Origin: Candidatus Zixiibacteriota bacterium
GTDB taxonomy: Bacteria > Zixibacteria > MSB-5A5 > GN15 > FEB-12
Direction: 5' to 3'
Assembly (NCBI GenBank): GCA_022571845.1
Contig: JACZXB010000007.1
Coordinates: 62,001 to 126,000, forward strand
DNA: 64,000 bases
Position 1 is the first letter of the stretch. Every line of letters starts with the position of its first letter. The notes under the pieces are model-generated. The model was not told the origin of the DNA. It saw only the letters and a list, made by a program, of their open reading frames with translations, and did no database searches. The translations under genes and the position numbers were made by a program. This document shows, piece by piece, positions 53,720 to 64,000 of this stretch.

Positions 53720-54823
53720 ATGGAAAATCAACAGACCCCAAAGCAAACCGAAGAAATCGCTGCTCTTTTGACTGACCTGTTTGCTGTCAATGCTGTCTAC
53801 AATCAGAATGAAAATATCATTTTCAGCCTTGAATATATCTACGATAGAGAGCAGTCCGACAAAGTTATCAAAGACCGCCTGAAAACTGCCGGTTACAATT
53901 TCAATCTGCACCAGCAAGACGGTAATCTACTGCTTAGTATCAACCCCGGCAGAAAAGAACGCATTCCCCTGGTCAATATCATTCTGTTTTTGGCTACGCT
54001 CTTTACAGTTTACTTTGTTCCGGTTTTCTTAAAACAGACCGTTATTAGTGAAACGCTAACCAGTGCCTTTTACAATACTCTCCAGGCACTTGAGAATGGC
54101 GCCGGTCTGATGTTTACCATTGCGCTCATCTCTATACTGCTTGTCCATGAGATGGGACACTATCTGGCAAGTAGAAGACGACAGATTGTAACTTCCTGGC
54201 CATATTTTATTCCGGCACCAAATATCATTGGCACCTTCGGTGCAATTATTAAATCCAAATCTCCCTTTTGGAACAGAAGAGATTTAATTGAAGTCGGCGC
54301 AGCCGGTCCGATAGCCGGTTGGATTGTAGCTATCGGCTGGCTCATTTATGGACTGGGGCATTCACGGATTATACTTCCGGAAGTGCTTTCAACCACAGGA
54401 GAAATGTTTTTTTCGTTAGAAGGAGAATCGGTCTTGATGAAACTGGCGACGCTGGCAATAGTAGGTCAGGCGCCTGCAGGACAGGTTTACTATCTTTCCG
54501 AAGCAGCCTTTGCAGGCTGGGTCGGGCTGCTGGTCACGGCGATAAATCTTTTACCGATAGGTCAGCTCGATGGCGGGCATATTATGTACGGGCTTTTTCG
54601 TGAAAAACAGAGAATGATGGGAGTTATTGCGATGGGGTTATTGGTGTTCCTGGGTTTTTTGTCACCGTTATGGTGGTTTTTTGCGGGGATGGGTCTTCTG
54701 TTCGGGATAAATCATCCGCCGACATTAAATGACCAAAGACCAATCAGCAGGGCTGCCTTCTGGATGGCTATGATATCAATTGGGATTATGATTTTATCTT
54801 TTACGCCGGTGCCTTTTCGGTAG
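53720..54823 (+). CDS. Site-2 protease family (M50) membrane peptidase
   Basis: 367 residues from ATG 53720; the TTG one codon earlier is not needed. A cytosolic N-terminal domain (about 1-80) precedes four or more TM helices. HEMGH (His143, Glu144, His147) lies in the TM4-like segment, and LPIGQLDGGHIMYG (about 270) supplies the third ligand Asp. IPAPNIIGTFGAIIKSKSP matches the PDZ-less S2P branch also found in chloroplast EGY proteins. It cleaves TM segments of regulators or remnants of signal peptides. Its 3' end overlaps the HD-GYP gene on the other strand by 23 nt. Confidence 0.92.
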   Translation: MENQQTPKQTEEIAALLTDLFAVNAVYNQNENIIFSLEYIYDREQSDKVIKDRLKTAGYNFNLHQQDGNLLLSINPGRKERIPLVNIILFLATLFTVYFVPVFLKQTVISETLTSAFYNTLQALENGAGLMFTIALISILLVHEMGHYLASRRRQIVTSWPYFIPAPNIIGTFGAIIKSKSPFWNRRDLIEVGAAGPIAGWIVAIGWLIYGLGHSRIILPEVLSTTGEMFFSLEGESVLMKLATLAIVGQAPAGQVYYLSEAAFAGWVGLLVTAINLLPIGQLDGGHIMYGLFREKQRMMGVIAMGLLVFLGFLSPLWWFFAGMGLLFGINHPPTLNDQRPISRAAFWMAMISIGIMILSFTPVPFR

Positions 54824-56318
54824 TTTGAAGCTCCGGAATAGAATCTAAATCTTCGGTACAGTCGTACAGCTTCTTTAAGTCTAAATCTCCTGATCTAATT
54901 ACTTCAAAGAAAGCTTTTACCATCTGCGGGTCGAATTGGCTGCCTGTGTTTTTTGCAATTTCAGAAATGGCTACTTTTAGCTCGGCGCCGTCGCGGTATG
55001 GTCTGTCAGAAAGTATGGCGTCAAAAGTATCGACTACCGCCAGAAGTCTGCCTTCGATTGGAATCCCCTCACCAGAGAGTCCTGAAGGATATCCTTTGCC
55101 GTCATATCTTTCATGGTGCGAGGCTATATATGGAATTGCCGGTTTGAAAAGATCTATGCCTTCGATGATTTGCAGGCCCAGTTCGGTATGTTTTTCCATC
55201 CGTTCAATTTCTGTCTTGCTCAGCTTGCTGGTCTTATTTAAGACAGCATCGGGAATGCCAATTTTACCGATATCGTGAAGCATACAGCCCATCACCAGAT
55301 TTTTTACCTGGTCGGGCTCCCAGCTAAGATGACGGGCAACAATTTCTGCAAGCTTTGATACTCTGTCGGTATGTCCGGCAGTATGGGCATCGCGGGCTTC
55401 GATAGCTTTGGCCAGTCCTTTAATAGCATTTAGATACGATTTTTGCAGGTCATTGTACATGCGCCAGTTGGCAATAGCAGATGCCGCGAAATTGCTTAGA
55501 ATGCCCAGTATATTAATCTCTCCGGAGAGAACTCTGTCAAATTTCCTGAAAGCTAAAATGTTTATTACACCCGTTAGAGTTCTTCCGATAAAAATCGGCT
55601 GAGAAATTTTGATTCTGTTTCTCTTAGATTCTCCTGCAGAATCCTCACGTATAGAGATTGCCGGCTGCGGACTTTTGGTATATGTAAATGTTTCAAGAGT
55701 TGAGTCATCCAGAACTTCGCCAATATATTGCTGGTCATCCGACTCATAGACTTTGCGATTAAGTTCAGCCTTGGAGGGATCTGAAATTATAACTCCTGCC
55801 GCAACTGCACCTATCTCTTTTTTACAGGACTTGACTAAATTGATCAGGTACTTCTCAATATTGTTATCAATGGAGCTACTGAAGCTGGTAGTCTTAAGAA
55901 ATTCCACCTGACCTTTAAGCTCCAAATTTTCTCTTCTGATAGACTGGTGCTCTAAGCCGCGTTCGATAGTAGCTTTTAGAAGTTCCATCTTAAAGGGTTT
56001 GACCAGAAAATCATAGGCACCGTTTTTCAGAACAGATATAACCGTCTCTATCGTCGGGTGGGCAGTCATAAGTATTACTATTGCATCGTGGTTGTGTTTC
56101 AGAACCGCATCAAGAATTTCTACACCGGAATGACTGCCCATTATAAGATCCGTCAATACCAGGTCAACTGGTTTACAGTCTAAATGTTTGAGGGCCAGAC
56201 TGGGGTCAGAATATACGCTGAGGTCGTATGATTCCATGCCCAGGGCGTCATTTATGAGATTGCAGATGTACTTTTCATCATCTACAACCAGTATTTTAGC
56301 CTTAGTATTCAAGAACAT
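54801..56318 (-). CDS. HD-GYP domain response regulator (cyclic-di-GMP phosphodiesterase type)
   Basis: 505 residues. Receiver domain (about 1-125) with phospho-acceptor Asp57 in LVLTDLIMG and Lys in LVKPFKM. A GAF-like region follows (about 160-290). The HD-GYP domain (about 310-485) is complete: HTAGHTDRV, LHDIGKIGIP, ASHHERYDGKGYPSGL (the HHE...GYP signature) and DTFDAILSDRPYR. It should hydrolyse c-di-GMP to GMP when phosphorylated. There is no kinase or diguanylate cyclase in the window. The C-terminal 23 nt overlap the M50 gene. Confidence 0.95.
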   Translation of the reverse strand: MFLNTKAKILVVDDEKYICNLINDALGMESYDLSVYSDPSLALKHLDCKPVDLVLTDLIMGSHSGVEILDAVLKHNHDAIVILMTAHPTIETVISVLKNGAYDFLVKPFKMELLKATIERGLEHQSIRRENLELKGQVEFLKTTSFSSSIDNNIEKYLINLVKSCKKEIGAVAAGVIISDPSKAELNRKVYESDDQQYIGEVLDDSTLETFTYTKSPQPAISIREDSAGESKRNRIKISQPIFIGRTLTGVINILAFRKFDRVLSGEINILGILSNFAASAIANWRMYNDLQKSYLNAIKGLAKAIEARDAHTAGHTDRVSKLAEIVARHLSWEPDQVKNLVMGCMLHDIGKIGIPDAVLNKTSKLSKTEIERMEKHTELGLQIIEGIDLFKPAIPYIASHHERYDGKGYPSGLSGEGIPIEGRLLAVVDTFDAILSDRPYRDGAELKVAISEIAKNTGSQFDPQMVKAFFEVIRSGDLDLKKLYDCTEDLDSIPELQTTEKAPA

Positions 56319-56426: not shown

Positions 56427-56612
56427 TGGAATCAGAATAGCCATCTATTTCCCCTCAATTTTCCGGTTGTACTGAGCAGACTTTGAGCAGAGTCTTTCGA
56501 GATTTGCAGACAGAGACAAATTCTCTCCGGCAATGTTTAAGGATTACTCAAATAACTCGATAATCAAAGAATAGCCGCCAGTTTTCAGGTGAATCATAGA
56601 AGGAGAAAAGAG

Positions 56613-58754
56613 ATGTCAAGGATTTTGACTATAGCAGCTTGTCTGATACTGATCTTGCAGCCGGCCGTTGAGGCCGAGACCAAAAAGGCACCTCGTCTGG
56701 TTAGAATAGGCGATGTCCCAACCGGCGAACTACGGGCAGGATATACTATATCTGCCGCGGACACCTGTATTGTCAGACATGACGACGGTCTATACTGGCG
56801 AATTGACGGCTGGATAATCGGCAACGAATTATATAAGTCCTATCTTGACCCGGCCGCCAGCTGCCAGCTTCCTTATCCCTTCACAGTTACAGAAATAAAT
56901 ATGCCGATGGCATTTGATGCCACCACTCCGTTAATAGTTGCGGTCGATATTGAAGAAGCAGACTTGTCAAATCCTAACTGCCCCGTACCCGGACAATTAT
57001 TAGCTATTTCTGCTCAGTATGAATATATGGTGCCGGGTGCTGGCGTTTACGATATCTGGATTCCATTGGATACACCTTTCGTAGTAAACGGACCTTTCTT
57101 TGCAGGATTCTTCATTGGCAATACATTTGAAGCAGGTGTAAATCCTGGCTTGATTACAGATAATATCCCCATGCAGTGCGTCTCATACAATATTTGGGAC
57201 ACATCCTTGGGCTTTGTAGATATGGGCAATAATGAAACTTTCGACCTCCCCGGCAGACTGATCCTTTATGCTTCCGGTTATCCCGGTGGTTCAGGGGGAG
57301 TTCAACCGGAACCGTCTCTGTCAATTATTTTTCCTGCTGAGGGAGATACGCTGCTTGGCTTTTCAAATATCTGGTCATGGGAAAATTCTGGTTCAGAAAT
57401 AATTGACTTCGTAATTTTTGAAGCGCGACCGGCCTCGGGAGCGTATCTTGAAATCGGCAGAGATTTTGACGGCAGCCAGACTCTCAGAGATGGTGTTAAT
57501 ACAGCCGTCATTGCCGACGGATTCAGTCAGTTCTGGGATTTTTCTACCCGTAGCGAAGGAGACTATGTCATAAGAGCCACAGCGGTTGATACCTCGGGCA
57601 GAACCTCTGCTGACAGCATAGCTGTCTACTTAGAACCTACTCCCCCGGTTCCGAGAATAGTTTCACCAGACAACGGCAGTGATTTTTGCCCCGACGTAAA
57701 TTTGCTGTTTAGTTTGTTTGATGAAGACTTTTCGAGGGTTGAGGCTCATGTCAAAAAAGGTGATACTGCTTTTTCATTAAACCTGATTCAACTGGTGCAG
57801 TCCAATTACGGAGATAACAACGGAAATCCTCTGGATGGCAATAGTTACACCAACGGCGAGTACGGCGAGTACTATAGCGGCCCGATAGCAGTCACCCAGG
57901 CCATCAGGGTTTGGTACGACCGCGGCTACAAACAGATTATGAGACAGGGACTTTCTGATATACCGATTAATGAATTTGTGGAGCTGATGGCCGGCTTCTT
58001 AAATACAAGAAACAATAGTGGTACTTATGATGAAAATATGATAGAAGGCTTAAGAGCGCACCTTGATCGCTTTGATTTAGTAGATTTTGACTATTTCCGT
58101 GACCCTGATTACTATTCACTAAGAAGCTGGTTAGAAGATGAGGAGCGTTCTGTCATACTCGGGCTCGGTGGTGCACCGGGAATGTGGGTTGCTGCTGATG
58201 GTTTCTCCGGATGGAAACAAGCCGACAGCAGTTTTGTGGTAAGAGTTGCCAATCCTGAAACCGGTTTTGTAGTCGACGCACTGATGAGAAACAATTCCGG
58301 AATCAATGAAATAAAAATTGGAAGCAGCTGGCAGTCGGTTGATATAATGATATCGCTCTTTGTAAGAAACTGGAACGTTTCGCGCCAGCTTATAGGTACT
58401 GACCTTGACGGTTCGGACGGCTGGTCAATCACCTGGACACCGATAGCCCTAAGCGATGGCGCTCCTTATTTCTTTAGAGCAACAGGCTTTGACCAGTCCG
58501 GCATAACCGGTAATTCAACGATTCTAATGAGTTATGATTGCGCTAATTTCTTTGTCAAAGGTGATTATAACGGCGACAATTTAACCAATATGCTCGACCT
58601 GATTTACCTGATAGATTTCCAGATTAACAGCGGACCTGCTCCGGTTGGCGGAGTAGGCCGGGCCGACGCAAACTGTGACAATAACGTAAACATAGCTGAT
58701 GCTGTTTTCTTTATAAATTTCATGTTTGGATCGTCCGGAACTCCCTGCTACTAA
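56613..58754 (+). CDS. Exported dockerin-type protein with degenerate C39-like peptidase domain
   Basis: 713 residues from ATG 56613, preferred to ATG 56589 because AAGGAG sits 8 nt upstream and a signal peptide follows (RILTIAACLILILQPAVEAE). A beta-sandwich module comes first (about 45-210), related in style to the modules of the giant dockerin protein. An Ig-like segment and SPDNGSDFCPDVNLLFSLFD follow. Then a region (about 410-560) resembling C39-like papain-fold domains: YYSGPIAVTQAIRVWYDRGY, with Ser where CGPxA-type enzymes have Cys, and GTYDENMIEGLRAHL. The last 68 residues are a dockerin-type pair (GDYNGDNLTNMLDLIYLI and ANCDNNVNIADAVFFIN). Probably a non-catalytic extracellular protein. 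Confidence 0.82.
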   Translation: MSRILTIAACLILILQPAVEAETKKAPRLVRIGDVPTGELRAGYTISAADTCIVRHDDGLYWRIDGWIIGNELYKSYLDPAASCQLPYPFTVTEINMPMAFDATTPLIVAVDIEEADLSNPNCPVPGQLLAISAQYEYMVPGAGVYDIWIPLDTPFVVNGPFFAGFFIGNTFEAGVNPGLITDNIPMQCVSYNIWDTSLGFVDMGNNETFDLPGRLILYASGYPGGSGGVQPEPSLSIIFPAEGDTLLGFSNIWSWENSGSEIIDFVIFEARPASGAYLEIGRDFDGSQTLRDGVNTAVIADGFSQFWDFSTRSEGDYVIRATAVDTSGRTSADSIAVYLEPTPPVPRIVSPDNGSDFCPDVNLLFSLFDEDFSRVEAHVKKGDTAFSLNLIQLVQSNYGDNNGNPLDGNSYTNGEYGEYYSGPIAVTQAIRVWYDRGYKQIMRQGLSDIPINEFVELMAGFLNTRNNSGTYDENMIEGLRAHLDRFDLVDFDYFRDPDYYSLRSWLEDEERSVILGLGGAPGMWVAADGFSGWKQADSSFVVRVANPETGFVVDALMRNNSGINEIKIGSSWQSVDIMISLFVRNWNVSRQLIGTDLDGSDGWSITWTPIALSDGAPYFFRATGFDQSGITGNSTILMSYDCANFFVKGDYNGDNLTNMLDLIYLIDFQINSGPAPVGGVGRADANCDNNVNIADAVFFINFMFGSSGTPCY

Positions 58755-58798: not shown

Positions 58799-59098
58799 CT
58801 ACTTACGAGCTGCCGCAGCTTTGACAGCCCGCCTTGCTATCTCTGGCGAAATACCAAGCAGTATGATAAGTTTATCTACCGCTTCATCGAGATATTTAGC
58901 CCAGCTTCTGTCATGTTTGTTTCTAAGTTCATCGGTGAGCTCATCAGCAAGTTGTGCTATCAATTCGGCATAGCGCTGTCTTTTCCCTATTTTCAAAAAG
59001 GGAACAACATAGCGGGTAACGATATGCCCTGCCAGAAGCAGCCCGAATGAGCCCAGGACAGAAAGCCAAGAAGCAGGTTCGAATAATAGTGACTCCAT
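58799..59098 (-). CDS. Small membrane protein, holin-like
   Basis: 99 residues. One hydrophobic segment (about 13-36, including LGSFGLLLAGHIVTRYVVPF) with an N-terminal acidic stub, then a charged helical region of 55 residues (RYAELIAQLADELTDELRNK) and a basic C-terminus ending AAAARK. Size and layout resemble phage holins of the one-TM type, and the gene is the last of a compact phage-like block. No family can be fixed by eye; it could also be a generic small membrane protein. Confidence 0.5.
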   Translation of the reverse strand: MESLLFEPASWLSVLGSFGLLLAGHIVTRYVVPFLKIGKRQRYAELIAQLADELTDELRNKHDRSWAKYLDEAVDKLIILLGISPEIARRAVKAAAARK

Positions 59099-59139
59099 AC
59101 AATTTCTCCTTTAAAGTTATTATTGAAGTATTATTTTGA

Positions 59140-61665
59140 TTACCAATCCAATTGCCAGCTGGTCGAATCAGGTACGGTAATTCTCTTGTGTACTATGGTA
59201 CCGTCGCTGCGCTCTATTATCAGGTCGTACTGGGTAGCAGCAGGAACCAATGAGTCCGAACGGATCAAATCCAGATAGAAATATCCACTGCTGTCAGATG
59301 TAGTCGTTACCATGAAAGGTGATATAATCAGATTACCCGATTGTGCAACACCGGCAGGGAGAAAGGCTCTGACCACGGCATCTTTTTCGGGGACAGCACT
59401 GACAGAGTACAAATAACCGTATACCCGGCACAAGGCCGGCAAAACAGGAGAGCCCGGGTCAAACTGGTCTCCAAAAACAGTATCAATTCCGGCACCCGTC
59501 ACTATCAACGTATCAAAAGTCTGATAAATGTAGCCGGGTGAAGTTGCTACGATTATAAAGCTGTCAGCATCAAGATTGAATGTTTCAAGTCCCAGTAGAT
59601 CCGATTTCCCTGTAGCTATTAAAGCTGATTGATTGATGTTACGCACTGCCAGATTCGTGCCGGGGATAACTTGAGAAGTAGAAGAGTCGTAGGTTACTAA
59701 TTGATATGAATACGCTCCCGAGCCTGTACCTATGCCCGATATTTCTAAGTCAAGATATTTTCCGAATGTCCCGGCAGTTGTATGATTTGACTGCGGTGTA
59801 TTCCAGACCCAGCCTGCCAGTGTTGCAGAATCCAATCCCGAAGCTCCCTGCACATAAGATGAATTGTTCAGCGAATCCCACATGCTTCCGGCAGCAGTCG
59901 CCGCATCACTAAAAGGAATATTCCATATCTCTTCTCTAAAAGTGCCGTCGATCTGCTCGGCGGTTATTGAATTAGCGGCTAGGTGGGCAGCCGTGATTGC
60001 GTCAGCCTCTATTTGGGCGGCTGATATATCTCCAGTTGCCCTATCAAAGTTAATTCCCGCATAACCGGCTAAATCAATTCTCGAACTACGGGCACCCAAA
60101 ATCGCAAATCTATCAAGAACATTCACCGGCTGTCCAAAAGCGGTATCTAATGTGACAAAACCGGAAATATTGTTGTAACTAATAATTGTTCTGCCACTGC
60201 CAGCATTACTGCCAGTGTAAAAGACCAAATGCTGAGTTCTCATATCCCCACCCGAAAGAGTTGTTTTAAACGCACTTGCACTATTAGCGGTTGAGTCCTT
60301 GACACTGTCCTGTTTAGGCACCAATCCCAACATAGCCGCACCGAAAGTCTCCATTGTGGTATAGCTATTTAATATCTCATCAAAAATAGTGGCGGCGGAG
60401 TCACCCAGAGAAGCCTCTTTAGCCACCCATCCATCCTGAGCTTCGGCGGTATCGTTTATCTTTGCTAAGATATTACCAAATCCCGTAGCAATCTTATTCC
60501 CGGTAGTGTCAAGTAACCAATTCGTATCGGCCAACATATTAGCCCAGCCCGCCCCACCCGCAGCGGAAGTCCAGTTCTGGTTCATCATTGTTTTTATATC
60601 AGTGGTATCCAATCCAGAGGCTGAACCCTGCACATAAGCAGGTTTCATCATTAAAGTACCAAAGCTCGTAGCTGCGCCAGCGTTCACATCAGATGAATCT
60701 CTTTTGAAGACGGTATCTGCAATCGCAACTATGTCAGCTGCGGAAAGACTTGTCGTAATATCAAGAGAGCTGTTATCAATTATAAGGGAGTCATTATCGG
60801 TAATCGGGTTCCAGCCATCAATATTACCCACCTCAGCCGCCAAGGTAGCTTCTCTTGCAATCCAGTTGTCCTGAAGTTGAAGAGTGTCAATAATAGCATT
60901 GGCGGTATCTATGACTTTGCCTATATCTGCGTTGTTGGCTATAGCTTGTGCACTCGCGGCACTTGCGTCTCTCATTATCTTAGCGAAAATACTGTTATTG
61001 GTAGTATCGCTTAAATTTCTATTCAATGTTGTATCTGCTATCGCATCTATGCCCGCCACCGAAAGAGCGTATCCGGTCTTATCGTTGTTGGTAACTACAG
61101 TGACTTCGGGGTCTTTTGAGTTCCAAATCGAAAAGTCAACAATCACCGAATCAGTAGCTGGGTCGTACAGTGAGGCTTCCCTTGCAACCCAGTTATCCTG
61201 TAATTGCAATGTATCAATCGTCCCAAAAGTTGTATCCCGAATCTCATCGAGATAGACATCAAGGGAATCACTGAGAACTTGTACTGTCCCCCAGTTATCC
61301 GTTGGTATGCCGCCGTCACCCCACATAACGATATTGATTGTCAGGGTATAATCTGTTGGTGTGGGCGTGCCGTCTATATCCTGAATCTGGTCAATAAACC
61401 AGTAAGTAGTATCTCCATAAATCTTACTTGTGTCTATGCCTATTGCAAAGGGATAGGTCGTACTGCGGGTATTAAACTGCAAGGCCGTGCCACCATCCAA
61501 ATAAGTAAATACGTGAACTGAGTCTGGCTTTGTTCTGATACCGGAGGAATCAAGTGTTATAACCCGCATAGTTATAAACTCGTCCGCCTTTTTCAGACCA
61601 AGAAAGTCTGCCTGCACCATCATCGGCAACAGCATTATCATTAACGTAAATAATGTTTTCTTCAT
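59140..61665 (-). CDS. Exported fibre-like repeat protein
   Basis: 841 residues. It begins with a Sec-type signal (MKKTLFTLMIMLLPMMVQA). The body alternates short helical and beta stretches, with three copies of an element of the type DTLQLQDNWVAREASL and two of YVQG(S)ASGLD, as in phage tail-fibre shafts. A stretch with ADAITAAHLAANSITAEQIDGTFREEIWN is the kind of heptad-like repeat seen in tail fibres. The C-terminal 120 residues look like a carboxypeptidase-regulatory/CnaB sandwich (CRVYGYLYSV ... DSSGYFYLDL). The start overlaps the stop of the preceding gene by 4 nt. Tail-fibre similarity is by composition and repeat style; the signal peptide is not expected for a phage particle protein. 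Confidence 0.7.
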   Translation of the reverse strand: MKKTLFTLMIMLLPMMVQADFLGLKKADEFITMRVITLDSSGIRTKPDSVHVFTYLDGGTALQFNTRSTTYPFAIGIDTSKIYGDTTYWFIDQIQDIDGTPTPTDYTLTINIVMWGDGGIPTDNWGTVQVLSDSLDVYLDEIRDTTFGTIDTLQLQDNWVAREASLYDPATDSVIVDFSIWNSKDPEVTVVTNNDKTGYALSVAGIDAIADTTLNRNLSDTTNNSIFAKIMRDASAASAQAIANNADIGKVIDTANAIIDTLQLQDNWIAREATLAAEVGNIDGWNPITDNDSLIIDNSSLDITTSLSAADIVAIADTVFKRDSSDVNAGAATSFGTLMMKPAYVQGSASGLDTTDIKTMMNQNWTSAAGGAGWANMLADTNWLLDTTGNKIATGFGNILAKINDTAEAQDGWVAKEASLGDSAATIFDEILNSYTTMETFGAAMLGLVPKQDSVKDSTANSASAFKTTLSGGDMRTQHLVFYTGSNAGSGRTIISYNNISGFVTLDTAFGQPVNVLDRFAILGARSSRIDLAGYAGINFDRATGDISAAQIEADAITAAHLAANSITAEQIDGTFREEIWNIPFSDAATAAGSMWDSLNNSSYVQGASGLDSATLAGWVWNTPQSNHTTAGTFGKYLDLEISGIGTGSGAYSYQLVTYDSSTSQVIPGTNLAVRNINQSALIATGKSDLLGLETFNLDADSFIIVATSPGYIYQTFDTLIVTGAGIDTVFGDQFDPGSPVLPALCRVYGYLYSVSAVPEKDAVVRAFLPAGVAQSGNLIISPFMVTTTSDSSGYFYLDLIRSDSLVPAATQYDLIIERSDGTIVHKRITVPDSTSWQLDW
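60410..61217 (-). repeat. Three copies of a coding repeat in the fibre-like gene
   Basis: Units at 61172-61217, 60845-60890 and 60410-60454 encode DTLQLQDNWVAREASL, DTLQLQDNWIAREATL and DTAEAQDGWVAKEASL. The first two keep about three quarters identity at DNA level; the third is more diverged. Spacing is about 330 and 435 nt. Confidence 0.8.
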
Positions 61666-62804
61666 TTATCCAACCTCGCATACTCAATATTCTCAGTATT
61701 TCTATTTCCCATTTGAATTTTTCTTCTGCGCCCACTTACGCCAGCTTCGCCCGCTTCTGTCCAGCATACTTTTATCTGCACGTGGTCAATGAGAATGTTA
61801 TCAGTCGTGGTGCCAGCTGGATTTATGAACACTCCAAATGTTGTTGCATTTACCTCGGCAACAGTCCAAGTCACACCCCAAAGCACATCGGTTGTGCCTC
61901 TGGCCTCCTGATAAGCATCGGAGTCTTTGTCGAATGTTATGTTGACGACATCCCCAACTTCACTCGTTCCGTTTTTAGTTAAGGCAACATTCACTCTGCG
62001 TCTGCTCGCTTGATTGGCGGCACCTTGACCTTCCATCCGAACAACGATTGAATCAATAGTTGCGCCTGTGGGTGCGCTGATGGTAAAATTCTCCACTTCC
62101 ATATCTACCTGTGATGATTGGTCATCCAAGGCTCTTTGGTCATCACTCAAAAACACCGAATCCTCTCTGCTCCAAGTTGCTCCGTCTGTACTGCTGGTGG
62201 CATCCTGGTAATCACAAGAACCGGCCTCAGTCCAATGAACTACTACGTACATTTTAACAACCCTGGGGTCATCACCGGCAGAAACCCATATCAACGAAAC
62301 ATCAAGACTGTCAACACTCGCCCTCGTCCAAGAGCCAGAACAACCCCCCGCAGAAGTAGGCGGACTTACATAAGCGTCAAAAACATAGTCCGTGAGGGTT
62401 GCTGTCATAGTTATTGTGTTGCCATCACACCAGTTGCTGGTTCCATTGAACAGCCGTGCCTTTATTACAGCAGATCCAGCACCAAAATTCTTTCGTGCCC
62501 TGATATGAATCATCACAGAGTCTATAATTGCATCAGAGGGTATTGTTGTATTGTCTGCCAAAGACAGCATTTCATCACCCGGAGAATCGTCCCATAGATA
62601 GGTAGCGTCATCTGCGTCATTTAATGCGCCATGCTTTGTCGAATTGACAAGCTGCCAATTATCGGGGAACGGGTCACCATCAGGGTCTAAGGTCTCAGTC
62701 CCGGCCCATACATTGGCAGCCAACATAAATAAAAACGGAAAACAAATTATTGATATATAGTTCTGTTGATTTCGTGGTCTGGTCAATTGTTTTACGGATT
62801 TCAT
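61662..62804 (-). CDS. Exported beta-sandwich protein, two-domain, unknown function
   Basis: 380 residues. A basic N-terminus and hydrophobic stretch (about 15-34, YISIICFPFLFMLAANVWAG) form a Sec-type signal. Two jelly-roll-like domains follow with the same design, each starting with a set-up strand and closing with an in-phase strand: PSDAIIDSVMIHIRARK ... VVKMYVVVHWTEAG, and ATIDSIVVRMEGQG ... LIDHVQIKVCWTEAG. The shared VHWTEAG/VCWTEAG ends mark an internal duplication. Such domains occur in phage structural proteins and in secreted FCB proteins. It overlaps its neighbours by 4 nt on both sides. Confidence 0.65.
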   Translation of the reverse strand: MKSVKQLTRPRNQQNYISIICFPFLFMLAANVWAGTETLDPDGDPFPDNWQLVNSTKHGALNDADDATYLWDDSPGDEMLSLADNTTIPSDAIIDSVMIHIRARKNFGAGSAVIKARLFNGTSNWCDGNTITMTATLTDYVFDAYVSPPTSAGGCSGSWTRASVDSLDVSLIWVSAGDDPRVVKMYVVVHWTEAGSCDYQDATSSTDGATWSREDSVFLSDDQRALDDQSSQVDMEVENFTISAPTGATIDSIVVRMEGQGAANQASRRRVNVALTKNGTSEVGDVVNITFDKDSDAYQEARGTTDVLWGVTWTVAEVNATTFGVFINPAGTTTDNILIDHVQIKVCWTEAGEAGVSGRRRKIQMGNRNTENIEYARLDK

Positions 62805-63088
62805 GGTTTGTTAGAGCTACTTCTTTCTTTTGCTTTTGAATTTGAATTTTCTGACTTAAGGGCGGCGCGTCTTATTTTTGAGAGCATCGCCCAAAACTTC
62901 TGCTGGTCCTCCCCTTTTGGAGCCAGTTTGTTTCTAAGTTCAATCATTTTGATTAAATCTCCCGGTTTAAGTTTAATTTCTATATCGCTTAAGAGTCTTT
63001 CATAATATCGTTTGATAAGGTCATCCAGAATTTCCAGACTTTCAGTCGGGGCGAATGATTCAATTGTGTTTTCAGGCATTTCATTCAC
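62801..63088 (-). CDS. Small helical protein of unknown function
   Basis: 95 residues, highly charged, mostly helical, no signal or TM segment. SLEILDDLIKRYYERLLSDI and GDLIKMIELRNKLAP suggest a helical bundle with a Ser/Lys-rich tail. It overlaps the upstream gene by 8 nt and the downstream one by 4 nt. In size and place it resembles the small chaperone or adaptor genes scattered among phage tail genes, but I cannot name it. Confidence 0.55.
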   Translation of the reverse strand: MNEMPENTIESFAPTESLEILDDLIKRYYERLLSDIEIKLKPGDLIKMIELRNKLAPKGEDQQKFWAMLSKIRRAALKSENSNSKAKERSSSNKP

Positions 63089-63455
63089 CTAACTCTATTA
63101 TTATAAGGTCTGTGGTAACCGGTTTATTTGACTTGGAATCGCGGGCAATCTTGAAACCGGTGGAGATTTCGGTGCCGACCATAAAGACCTGCCTGTCGCT
63201 CAAAGGACGGGCTATTACCAGCGCTCTGGCAATGTTGGCCGGAAGTGAGTTACCGCGGCGATCGGTTAATCCGGCAAAGCTGACCGACTGCGATGAATCG
63301 CCGATATTGATTGAGCCAAAAGCAACAGACTTGGTTGCATCGACCTGTTCTAAGTTTAAGTATTCTATTTCTCCGAGGTTTTGGACTCCCCAAACATTGA
63401 AGTTAAGGACGTGCCAGATTCTGTGTGACGTTAATTGTACTAATCCGTTATTCAT
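63081..63455 (-). CDS. Small beta-rich protein of the phage-like block, unknown function
   Basis: 124 residues, no signal peptide. A run of beta strands such as VQNLGEIEYLNLEQVD, SVSFAGLTDRRGN and GFKIARDSKSNKPVTTDLII. A closing FMVGTEISTGFKI is followed by an acidic end. The composition resembles small phage virion or head-tail proteins. It lies 9 nt after the truncated gene and overlaps the next by 8 nt. Confidence 0.5.
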   Translation of the reverse strand: MNNGLVQLTSHRIWHVLNFNVWGVQNLGEIEYLNLEQVDATKSVAFGSINIGDSSQSVSFAGLTDRRGNSLPANIARALVIARPLSDRQVFMVGTEISTGFKIARDSKSNKPVTTDLIIIELGE

Positions 63456-63464
63456 CTATTACCT

Positions 63465-64000
63465 CTAACTGCGTACTGGCGCCGAAGCGCTGTCAAATGG
63501 TGGACGAAATGATTTCAGTAAGGTGTCTGCCCGGCCGGCGTAACTTTCGACCAATTTTAGCCAGGCTGCGGCAACTTTGTCATGACCTCGAAGCGATGAC
63601 AACTCTCTGGCAGCTGATGAACGGCTGATAATTTCCAGAGCACGGTAAGTTGCTGCTGCCTGTATCGCCGGTTCTATGCCAAATTGCCGGTCAGGGTCTA
63701 TGGTCTTTTCTATCAGACCATTGGCCTCATCGACGGCATTTTGCAGAAGTTCTTCGGTGTAACTTTGATAAACAGGTGTGTAGTCAAGATAGACAGACTC
63801 GCCGGATGTTATCGCTCCGGCGGCAATCCTTTTCAGGCTGCCTCCTTCTGAGTCCAGTGAATAGTCCACGCCCTTTTTATATGAGATATAATTAGTGTAC
63901 CAGATCAGAATCGTCTGTCCGGAGCTTAGCGCTCCGTCGCTTTTGATAGTAAGGGCACCGACATCGTAGTCAATTATGTAATCAATATTTTCGGTATAAA
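63465..64000 (-). CDS. Tandem-repeat beta protein of the phage-like block, 5' end outside the window
   Basis: The frame is open from the stop at 63465 to the window edge, so the GTG at 63869 is only an internal codon and the gene is longer than visible. About 178 residues can be read. Two tandem units of about 40 residues are seen: YTENIDYIIDYDVGALTIKS...GQTILIWYT and YKKGVDYSLDSEGGSLKRIA...GESVYLDYT, an internal beta repeat. The C-terminal 110 residues are helical (LLQNAVDEANGLIEK, IQAAATYRALEII). The pattern suggests a structural particle or connector protein. No family named. Confidence 0.6.
   Translation of the reverse strand, partial: YTENIDYIIDYDVGALTIKSDGALSSGQTILIWYTNYISYKKGVDYSLDSEGGSLKRIAAGAITSGESVYLDYTPVYQSYTEELLQNAVDEANGLIEKTIDPDRQFGIEPAIQAAATYRALEIISRSSAARELSSLRGHDKVAAAWLKLVESYAGRADTLLKSFRPPFDSASAPVRS

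Follow-up and report, generated by a model that had tools for sequence, protein, structure and literature searches.

A phage-head gene cluster inherited in Zixibacteria, with exported proteins at its distal end, as a candidate domesticated DNA-packaging particle

Introduction

The last genes of the 64,000-nucleotide stretch of DNA analysed here (the window) raise the question of why proteins with export signals stand in one gene string with phage-like proteins. An initial annotation took these genes for the distal end of a phage tail module, and proposed a domesticated particle displayed at the cell surface, a new exported appendage, or a phage of an FCB host; the host is indeed of FCB type, belonging to Zixibacteria.

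Results

Six ORFs were confirmed at window positions 58799–64000, all on the minus strand: g14 (58799–59098; 99 aa), a holin-like protein with one N-terminal TM helix and conserved soluble helices; g13 (59140–61665; 841 aa), predicted to be exported, modular and adhesin-like; g12 (61662–62804; 380 aa), likewise predicted to be exported, with an internal duplication; g11 (62801–63088; 95 aa), a helical candidate small terminase (TerS); g10 (63081–63455; 124 aa), which is conserved; and g09 (63465 to beyond 64000), a putative head-completion or neck protein. Only the C-terminal part of g09 lies in the window; the full gene, encoding 270 aa, ends at position 126277 of contig C6, 277 bases past the window edge. 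The block had been described as compact with overlaps of 4–8 nt, which is true of three junctions (4, 4 and 8 nt), while the other two are gaps of 41 nt before the 99-aa gene and 9 nt before the 124-aa gene. The convergent neighbour d1 (56589–58754, plus strand) encodes an exported 721-aa protein with DUF7451 and dockerin domains (Pfam). It was present in 27 of 51 loci, in most relatives at the order level runs convergently towards the end of the cluster, and is conserved beside it; whether it is part of the cluster itself is uncertain.

Extension past position 64000 confirmed that the block is derived from a phage and, at the same time, overturned its reading as the end of a tail module, since portal, terminase, protease and capsid genes were found upstream and neither a sheath nor a tape-measure gene. 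On contig C6, all on the minus strand, g09 is preceded by genes for a beta-propeller protein (g08, 126281–127693), the major capsid protein (MCP; g07, 127746–128849), a decoration protein (g06, 128861–129280), g05 (129363–129776), g04 (129763–130077), a prohead protease (g03, 130081–131601), the large terminase (TerL; g02, 132131–133462) and the portal (g01, 133456–134742). The portal, TerL, protease and MCP were identified by PHROGs and Pfam together with conserved residues. Judged by these predicted products, the six genes are the distal (3′) end of a phage-head cluster, and at the sequence level the cluster was shown to hold the full set of genes for an HK97-type head and its packaging, the active sites of both TerL and the protease being intact. 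The Walker A, Walker B and nuclease Asp residues were invariant in 13 diverse TerL. No TerL was detectable in one genome carrying the cluster, RBG-1 (G094), suggesting that the system can decay. Because the TerL start codon is missing, fusion of portal and TerL by a −1 frameshift was considered; inspection by eye showed no conserved slippery site. Comparison of the MCP profile, g09 and g10 with PDB sequences gave no useful match.

No tail gene was recognized within the cluster in any of the three phyla that carry it (see below). Using two Pfam models, tail sheath was found in 1 of 10 genomes, the source genome not being that one, and tape measure in 0 of 10. This absence is judged from gene content and two Pfam models, tail genes elsewhere in the genome having been sought by family only; tail proteins diverge fast, and distant tail genes are possible. 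A tail module was rejected on the basis of the upstream head genes and of the sheath and tape-measure searches, empty save for one genome, and a tailocin or contractile injection system on the basis of the head genes and the lack of sheath in the source genome. Encapsulins, which resemble the present system as host-owned HK97-fold shells, are nanocompartments without portal, terminase or maturation protease; all three are present and conserved here, and this class was also rejected.

A single MCP copy was found in 111 of the 132 genomes of the Zixibacteria class and, among the roughly 78 good genomes, in 73. Gene order was collinear across 51 Zixibacteria loci, the flanking HD-GYP and LipA genes were conserved in the family, and identity dropped from 99 through 70 and 65 to 60% with decreasing kinship. 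The cluster tree shared 18 of 25 splits with the host tree (0.34 expected by chance; Mantel r 0.85). Every cluster gene was under purifying selection (dN/dS 0.01–0.37), with values of about 0.01–0.023 for the MCP within the genus, and no integrase or replication gene was found among the conserved cluster genes. The single copy, the collinear order, the host-congruent tree and the purifying selection support the suspected domestication as opposed to an ordinary prophage; we consider it nearly certain that the cluster, inherited vertically in Zixibacteria, has been domesticated. For an ordinary prophage, the initial annotation had expected complete head genes upstream, variable presence between strains and no predicted signal peptide. 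The head genes are there, but presence is near universal and the signal peptides are real; together with the congruent trees and the lack of integrase and replication genes, this led us to reject an ordinary prophage.

Two further phyla carry homologous clusters, detected in 34 of 39 genomes of one and 4 of 6 of the other. The MCPs of the three phyla grouped in a single clade (support 1.0), separate from 60 viral MCPs, and further viral scans placed no virus inside it. The host tree repeats the branching of the cluster, (Z,(C,B)), where Z is Zixibacteria and B and C are the other two phyla. These trees suggest that the cluster has been inherited since before the split of the three phyla. In a fourth phylum near in the host tree (that of G137), the cluster was found in none of four genomes, all of which are incomplete.

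Homologues of g09 occurred in 46 of 51 Zixibacteria loci, and matches in the two other phyla ranged from E 1e-25 to 1e-74; g09 is a signature gene common to all three. Among 80 viral-database loci it was found only in L100, which groups with the phylum B clusters. The g10 gene was present in 44 of 51 loci, with a positional counterpart in the two other phyla; family searches returned no match, and the product is probably a virion or neck protein. Most lineages have a short g11; a long form (139–191 aa), which sits between portal and TerL, was found in four loci (L055, L062, L063 and L199). A profile built from three long-form sequences found the window g11 at E 1e-6, while the Zixibacteria form matched no TerS in Pfam or PHROGs. 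By position, g11 is a candidate TerS that would lack the N-terminal region of the long form. TerS without the N-terminal domain has been described as a GTA signature (PMC11841831).

The export signals first noticed on the 841- and 380-residue proteins held up. Under a simple n-h-c/AxA test, only g13 and g12 passed among the 14 cluster genes of the source genome. The g13 signal is conserved phylum-wide: homologues were found in 41 of 51 loci, and 38 of these 41 carried a signal peptide, compared with 0 of 29 portals, 0 of 31 terminases, 0 of 50 MCPs and 0 of 46 g09. This conservation is far beyond chance. Behind its signal peptide, g13 comprises an Ig-like domain, a variable repeat stalk, a CnaB-like domain and a C-terminal CarboxypepD/CnaB-like domain. 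An AF2 model of a 375-aa orthologue had a pLDDT of 80, with CnaB domains at Z 11.4, and a PF13620 match in a g13 orthologue was sub-threshold (E 6e-7). The duplication proposed for the 380-residue protein was borne out, the halves of g12 being 29% identical (E 4e-6); its designation as a putative jelly-roll protein is taken from the earlier reading. The g12 slot is variable, g12 being genus-specific and other genera carrying different exported families there. Exported proteins recurred in the homologous clusters of both other phyla. Both g12 and g13 are predicted to lie outside the cytoplasm, on the cell surface. The holin assignment of the 99-aa g14 fared less well, as the PHROG holin match reached only E 0.035; the gene is kept as the last one in 25 of 51 Zixibacteria loci.

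Discussion

We regard the cluster as probably an ancient domesticated GTA-like DNA-packaging particle (viriform) with exported adhesin partners. All the evidence comes from sequence, and it is by inference that a particle would form, hold packaged DNA and transfer it. In the proposed mechanism, TerL would fill the capsid with host DNA, the reduced TerS no longer selecting a pac site; g09 and g10 would close the neck, with the g08 beta-propeller lectin on top. Particles might exit by lysis assisted by g14, be captured by Sec-exported g12 and g13 on the surface of the producer and its kin, and the ordinary ComEC system would then import the captured DNA. If g12 and g13 are such surface captors, the export signals mark the recipient or surface half of the system and not its cytosol-assembled parts. 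ComEC was found in 9 of 10 genomes; it was not found in the source genome (98.8% complete) and was present in a congener. Going further, we tentatively suggest that a single domestication of the head may have preceded the divergence of Zixibacteria from two sister phyla, and that the tail may have been lost, leaving a tailless DNA-transfer or export particle with Sec-exported surface proteins from the same operon as the delivery side. Such a two-part system of particle and surface receptor would be unlike any described GTA.

The absence of recognized tail genes in all three phyla, and partners that are adhesin- and lectin-like, would also fit a domesticated capsid without a tail whose role is the storage or export of DNA or protein, for instance as structural DNA of biofilms, with adhesins anchoring the shells in the matrix and no intercellular gene transfer. 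We consider this unlikely: the cluster retains the portal, TerL and the candidate TerS, the invariant TerL active sites point to regulated DNA packaging, and nothing shows release as matrix. Less probable still is that the head genes are retained for immunity, the capsid or terminase interfering with incoming phages and the exported proteins blocking adsorption. Long purifying selection does show a benefit, and related phages have the same MCP family; however, the complete packaging set is conserved, beyond what interference needs, and no defence genes accompany the cluster across the phylum.

It is improbable, though less so than the immunity role, that g12 and g13 form an unrelated secreted-protein operon lying beside the head cluster by chance. 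In RBG-1, secreted dockerin proteins surround and interrupt the cluster as well, and g12 differs among genera; against this, g13 keeps its position, with g11 on one side and g14 on the other, throughout the phylum, 4-nt overlaps link the genes in the source genome, and the homologous clusters of both other phyla likewise include exported proteins. That Zixibacteria repeatedly acquired an ordinary prophage or satellite, a view for which the homology of the head genes to phage genes could be cited, is scarcely credible given the single copy, the constant neighbours, a conserved part with neither integrase nor replication module, the host-congruent tree and the one three-phylum clade without viruses.

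The GTA-like particle that we favour resembles RcGTA-type GTAs (Rhodogtaviriformidae; PMC7296036, PMC11841831) in being a vertically inherited, selected head cluster with portal, TerL, protease and MCP, in a TerS-like candidate without the N-terminal domain in most lineages, in a sugar-binding-type fold (g08), and in the presence of ComEC in most hosts tested. Unlike these, it has no recognized tail, tape-measure, hub or cell-wall peptidase gene, includes exported Ig/CnaB and putative jelly-roll proteins in the gene string, spans three phyla, and has an MCP profile that matches no solved capsid sequence. BaGTA (Bartonella), VSH-1/BhGTA (Brachyspira), Dd1 and VTA, compared here by their description, are likewise independent phage-head domestications in other lineages (PMC11841831, PMC9953437), but were described from single genera or species, whereas the present cluster occurs in most genomes of whole phyla.

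The spread of GTAs outside alphaproteobacteria has been stated to be an open question (PMC11841831), and we found no earlier report of such a cluster in Zixibacteria in the open PMC literature. A host-owned packaging cluster in most members of entire, largely uncultured phyla, apparently predating a three-phylum split, would rank among the oldest and broadest bacterial virus domestications known. The g09 and MCP genes provide concrete markers for finding further clusters. Through the conserved exported partners, the capture of particles at the cell surface becomes directly testable.

Phages whose portal is phrog_3753 and whose MCP is phrog_3922 (contigs of faecal phages and from IMG/VR, L087 and L088 among them) share the order portal–protease–decoration–MCP with the cluster. 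Unlike the cluster, L087 and L088 have tail genes. These phages do not carry g08, g10, g11 or g14, g09 is found only in L100, g13 has only a weak match, and MCP identity to the present cluster is at most 39%, save for the misfiled L085. Exported proteins after the MCP also occur in some true phages, three of them in the L086 and L087 phages, so that such proteins need not have arisen to serve the host. L085 and L100 illustrate that some clusters of the present kind are filed as viruses in virus databases.

Head and packaging genes

The window spans positions 62001–126000 of contig JACZXB010000007.1, and the genome from which it derives is 2.75 Mb in size and 99% complete. The six minus-strand ORFs described in the initial annotation were found where it had placed them, and its export signals on the 841-aa adhesin-like protein (g13) and the 380-aa protein (g12) were recovered, as these two passed a simple signal-peptide test and no other cluster gene did. 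The two halves of g12 align with each other (E 4e-6). Past the window edge, genes on the same minus strand are met in the reverse of transcription order, namely, the rest of the gene for the 270-aa putative head-completion/neck protein (g09), a 470-aa protein (g08), the major capsid protein (MCP, g07; phrog_3922, E 2e-66), a decoration-type protein (g06), two small genes (g05 and g04), a prohead-protease-like protein (g03), the large terminase (TerL, g02) and the portal (g01; phrog_3753, E 2e-19). TerL matches solved phage terminases, and its Walker A, Walker B and RNase-H-type aspartates (D285, D339, D345 and D415) are intact and invariant across 13 sequences spanning the Zixibacteria phylum. 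One His and one Ser of the g03 protease domain are kept in 60 sequences. Judged from sequence, the gene block and its upstream genes are a head and packaging cluster of approximately 14 kb in which no tail gene was recognised, rather than the proposed distal end of a tail module.

Tail-sheath families were absent from nine of the ten genomes searched, and tape-measure families from all ten. Taken alone, this weakly favours a tail-less reading, consistent with the homologous clusters of two further phyla (B and C), in which no tail genes were recognised. g08 was confidently predicted to comprise a beta-propeller and a jelly roll (pLDDT 94.7) and is most similar to PLL-type lectins and fibre-like proteins of phages. 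g11 is a small terminase (TerS) candidate. In four loci its long form (139–191 aa) sits between the portal and TerL genes; elsewhere, g11 is mostly an 83–132-aa form without the N-terminal region. Provided g11 is TerS, most Zixibacteria would lack its presumed DNA-binding part, the loss of which has likewise been reported for TerS of known gene transfer agents (GTAs) (PMC11841831). The phylum C TerS retains a helix-turn-helix.

TerL of this genus and many relatives has no ATG, GTG or TTG start (JACZXB010000007.1, 133455–133470; locus L002, 15455–15470; just outside the window). Its frame overlaps the portal stop via ATA, CTA, GTA and similar codons, suggesting that TerL is translated by reinitiation at a start codon outside the canonical set or else through frameshifting.

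Inheritance within Zixibacteria

The cluster hosts are Candidatus Zixiibacteriota, including genome RBG-1. Of the 132 genomes in the class, 111 (own genome counted) contain MCP, one copy each; among those that are ≥90% complete, 73 of approximately 78 contain it. Its identity declines with kinship, from 99% (genus) through approximately 70% (family) and 65% (order) to 60% (class). Gene order is identical or almost so across 51 loci, with HD-GYP regulator and lipoyl synthase genes as flanks within the family; in some families, portal and TerL are placed elsewhere in the genome. Trees built for 28 genomes from ribosomal proteins and from five cluster genes had 18 of 25 splits in common (random mean, 0.34; Mantel r, 0.85), and dN/dS was 0.01–0.37 for every cluster gene. 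An ordinary prophage is excluded by this single-copy distribution, the conserved order and flanks, the host-congruent trees and the dN/dS values.

In RBG-1 (G094; L060 and L198), four secreted dockerin-type genes separate portal from protease and a genome search found no TerL, which suggests lineage-specific decay. In genome G042 (L077 and L078), a break within the MCP gene splits the cluster into two parts, which lie on opposite strands at a distance of 0.6 Mb and have approximately 48 codons in common; this is either an inversion or a misassembly. A contig filed as 'Thermoplasmata archaeon' (L042) bears a Zixibacteria cluster and is probably misbinned.

Homologous clusters in two further phyla

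MCP was detected in 34 of 39 phylum B genomes and four of six phylum C genomes, in clusters containing g06, MCP, a g10-like gene (g10 encodes a conserved 124-aa protein), g09, portal, protease, exported proteins and a TerL different from that of Zixibacteria. Zixibacteria, B and C each came out as monophyletic in the MCP tree and formed a joint clade (support 1.0) apart from 60 viral MCPs. The sole 'virus' within it, L100, has phylum B chromosomes as nearest kin, and two additional scans of 2.9 million viral contigs found no true virus joining the clade. The ribosomal tree, with phylum C represented by one genome, branched likewise, B and C together (0.97) and Zixibacteria outside; two sampled genomes of other phyla without the gene fall in the same region. 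The simplest reading of these trees would be a single domestication predating the split of the three phyla, followed by losses, while early transfer of the cluster between phyla may be an alternative origin. The IMG/VR 'viral' contigs L085 and L100 resemble chromosomal copies of inherited clusters.

Exported proteins

Of the 51 loci, 41 have a g13 homologue, which follows g11 (or the g12 slot) and precedes the holin-like g14 wherever those exist. The signal-peptide test was passed by 38 of 41 g13 proteins, compared with 0/50 for MCP, 0/31 for TerL, 0/29 for portal and 0/46 for g09. A short g13 orthologue was predicted to contain an Ig-like domain, a variable stalk, a CnaB-like domain (Z 11.4) and a further such domain, resembling those of pilins and adhesins. 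At least three distinct exported families occupy the g12 slot; the phylum C cluster includes an exported carbohydrate-binding CBM96-type protein, and phylum B has an exported family of approximately 190 aa after the protease. Exported proteins 3′ of MCP are also encoded by some viral contigs that share this capsid family, such as L087, so the habit may be older than domestication; these viral proteins have no homology to those of the cluster. In L086 and L087 (IMG/VR), three consecutive signal-peptide proteins directly follow MCP, and a sheath-like gene was recognised in L087 by inspection.

Putative role in DNA transfer

The conserved genes and active sites point to a packaging capacity, and we infer all subsequent steps. 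Most likely, small heads would be filled with host DNA at little selectivity, and lysis, with g14 as holin-like protein, would free the particles. g12 and g13, exported to the surface of kin cells, would assist particle capture via g08, and ComEC, present in nine of ten genomes, would then take up the DNA. RcGTA likewise depends on a competence system after delivery into the periplasm (PMC7296036). As far as sequence tells, the cluster would work like a GTA, but it is not classed as one, transfer being a putative function and no tail gene having been recognised. No report of such a cluster for Zixibacteria was found in the open literature (open PMC papers), and there is a credible chance that it is something categorically new.

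Neighbouring genes

A convergent gene for an exported protein with DUF7451 and dockerin domains (window 56589–58754) is a conserved neighbour of the cluster across most of the order and is possibly linked to it functionally. An HD-GYP response regulator (window 54801–56318), constant in its place beside the cluster within the family, is a candidate regulator.
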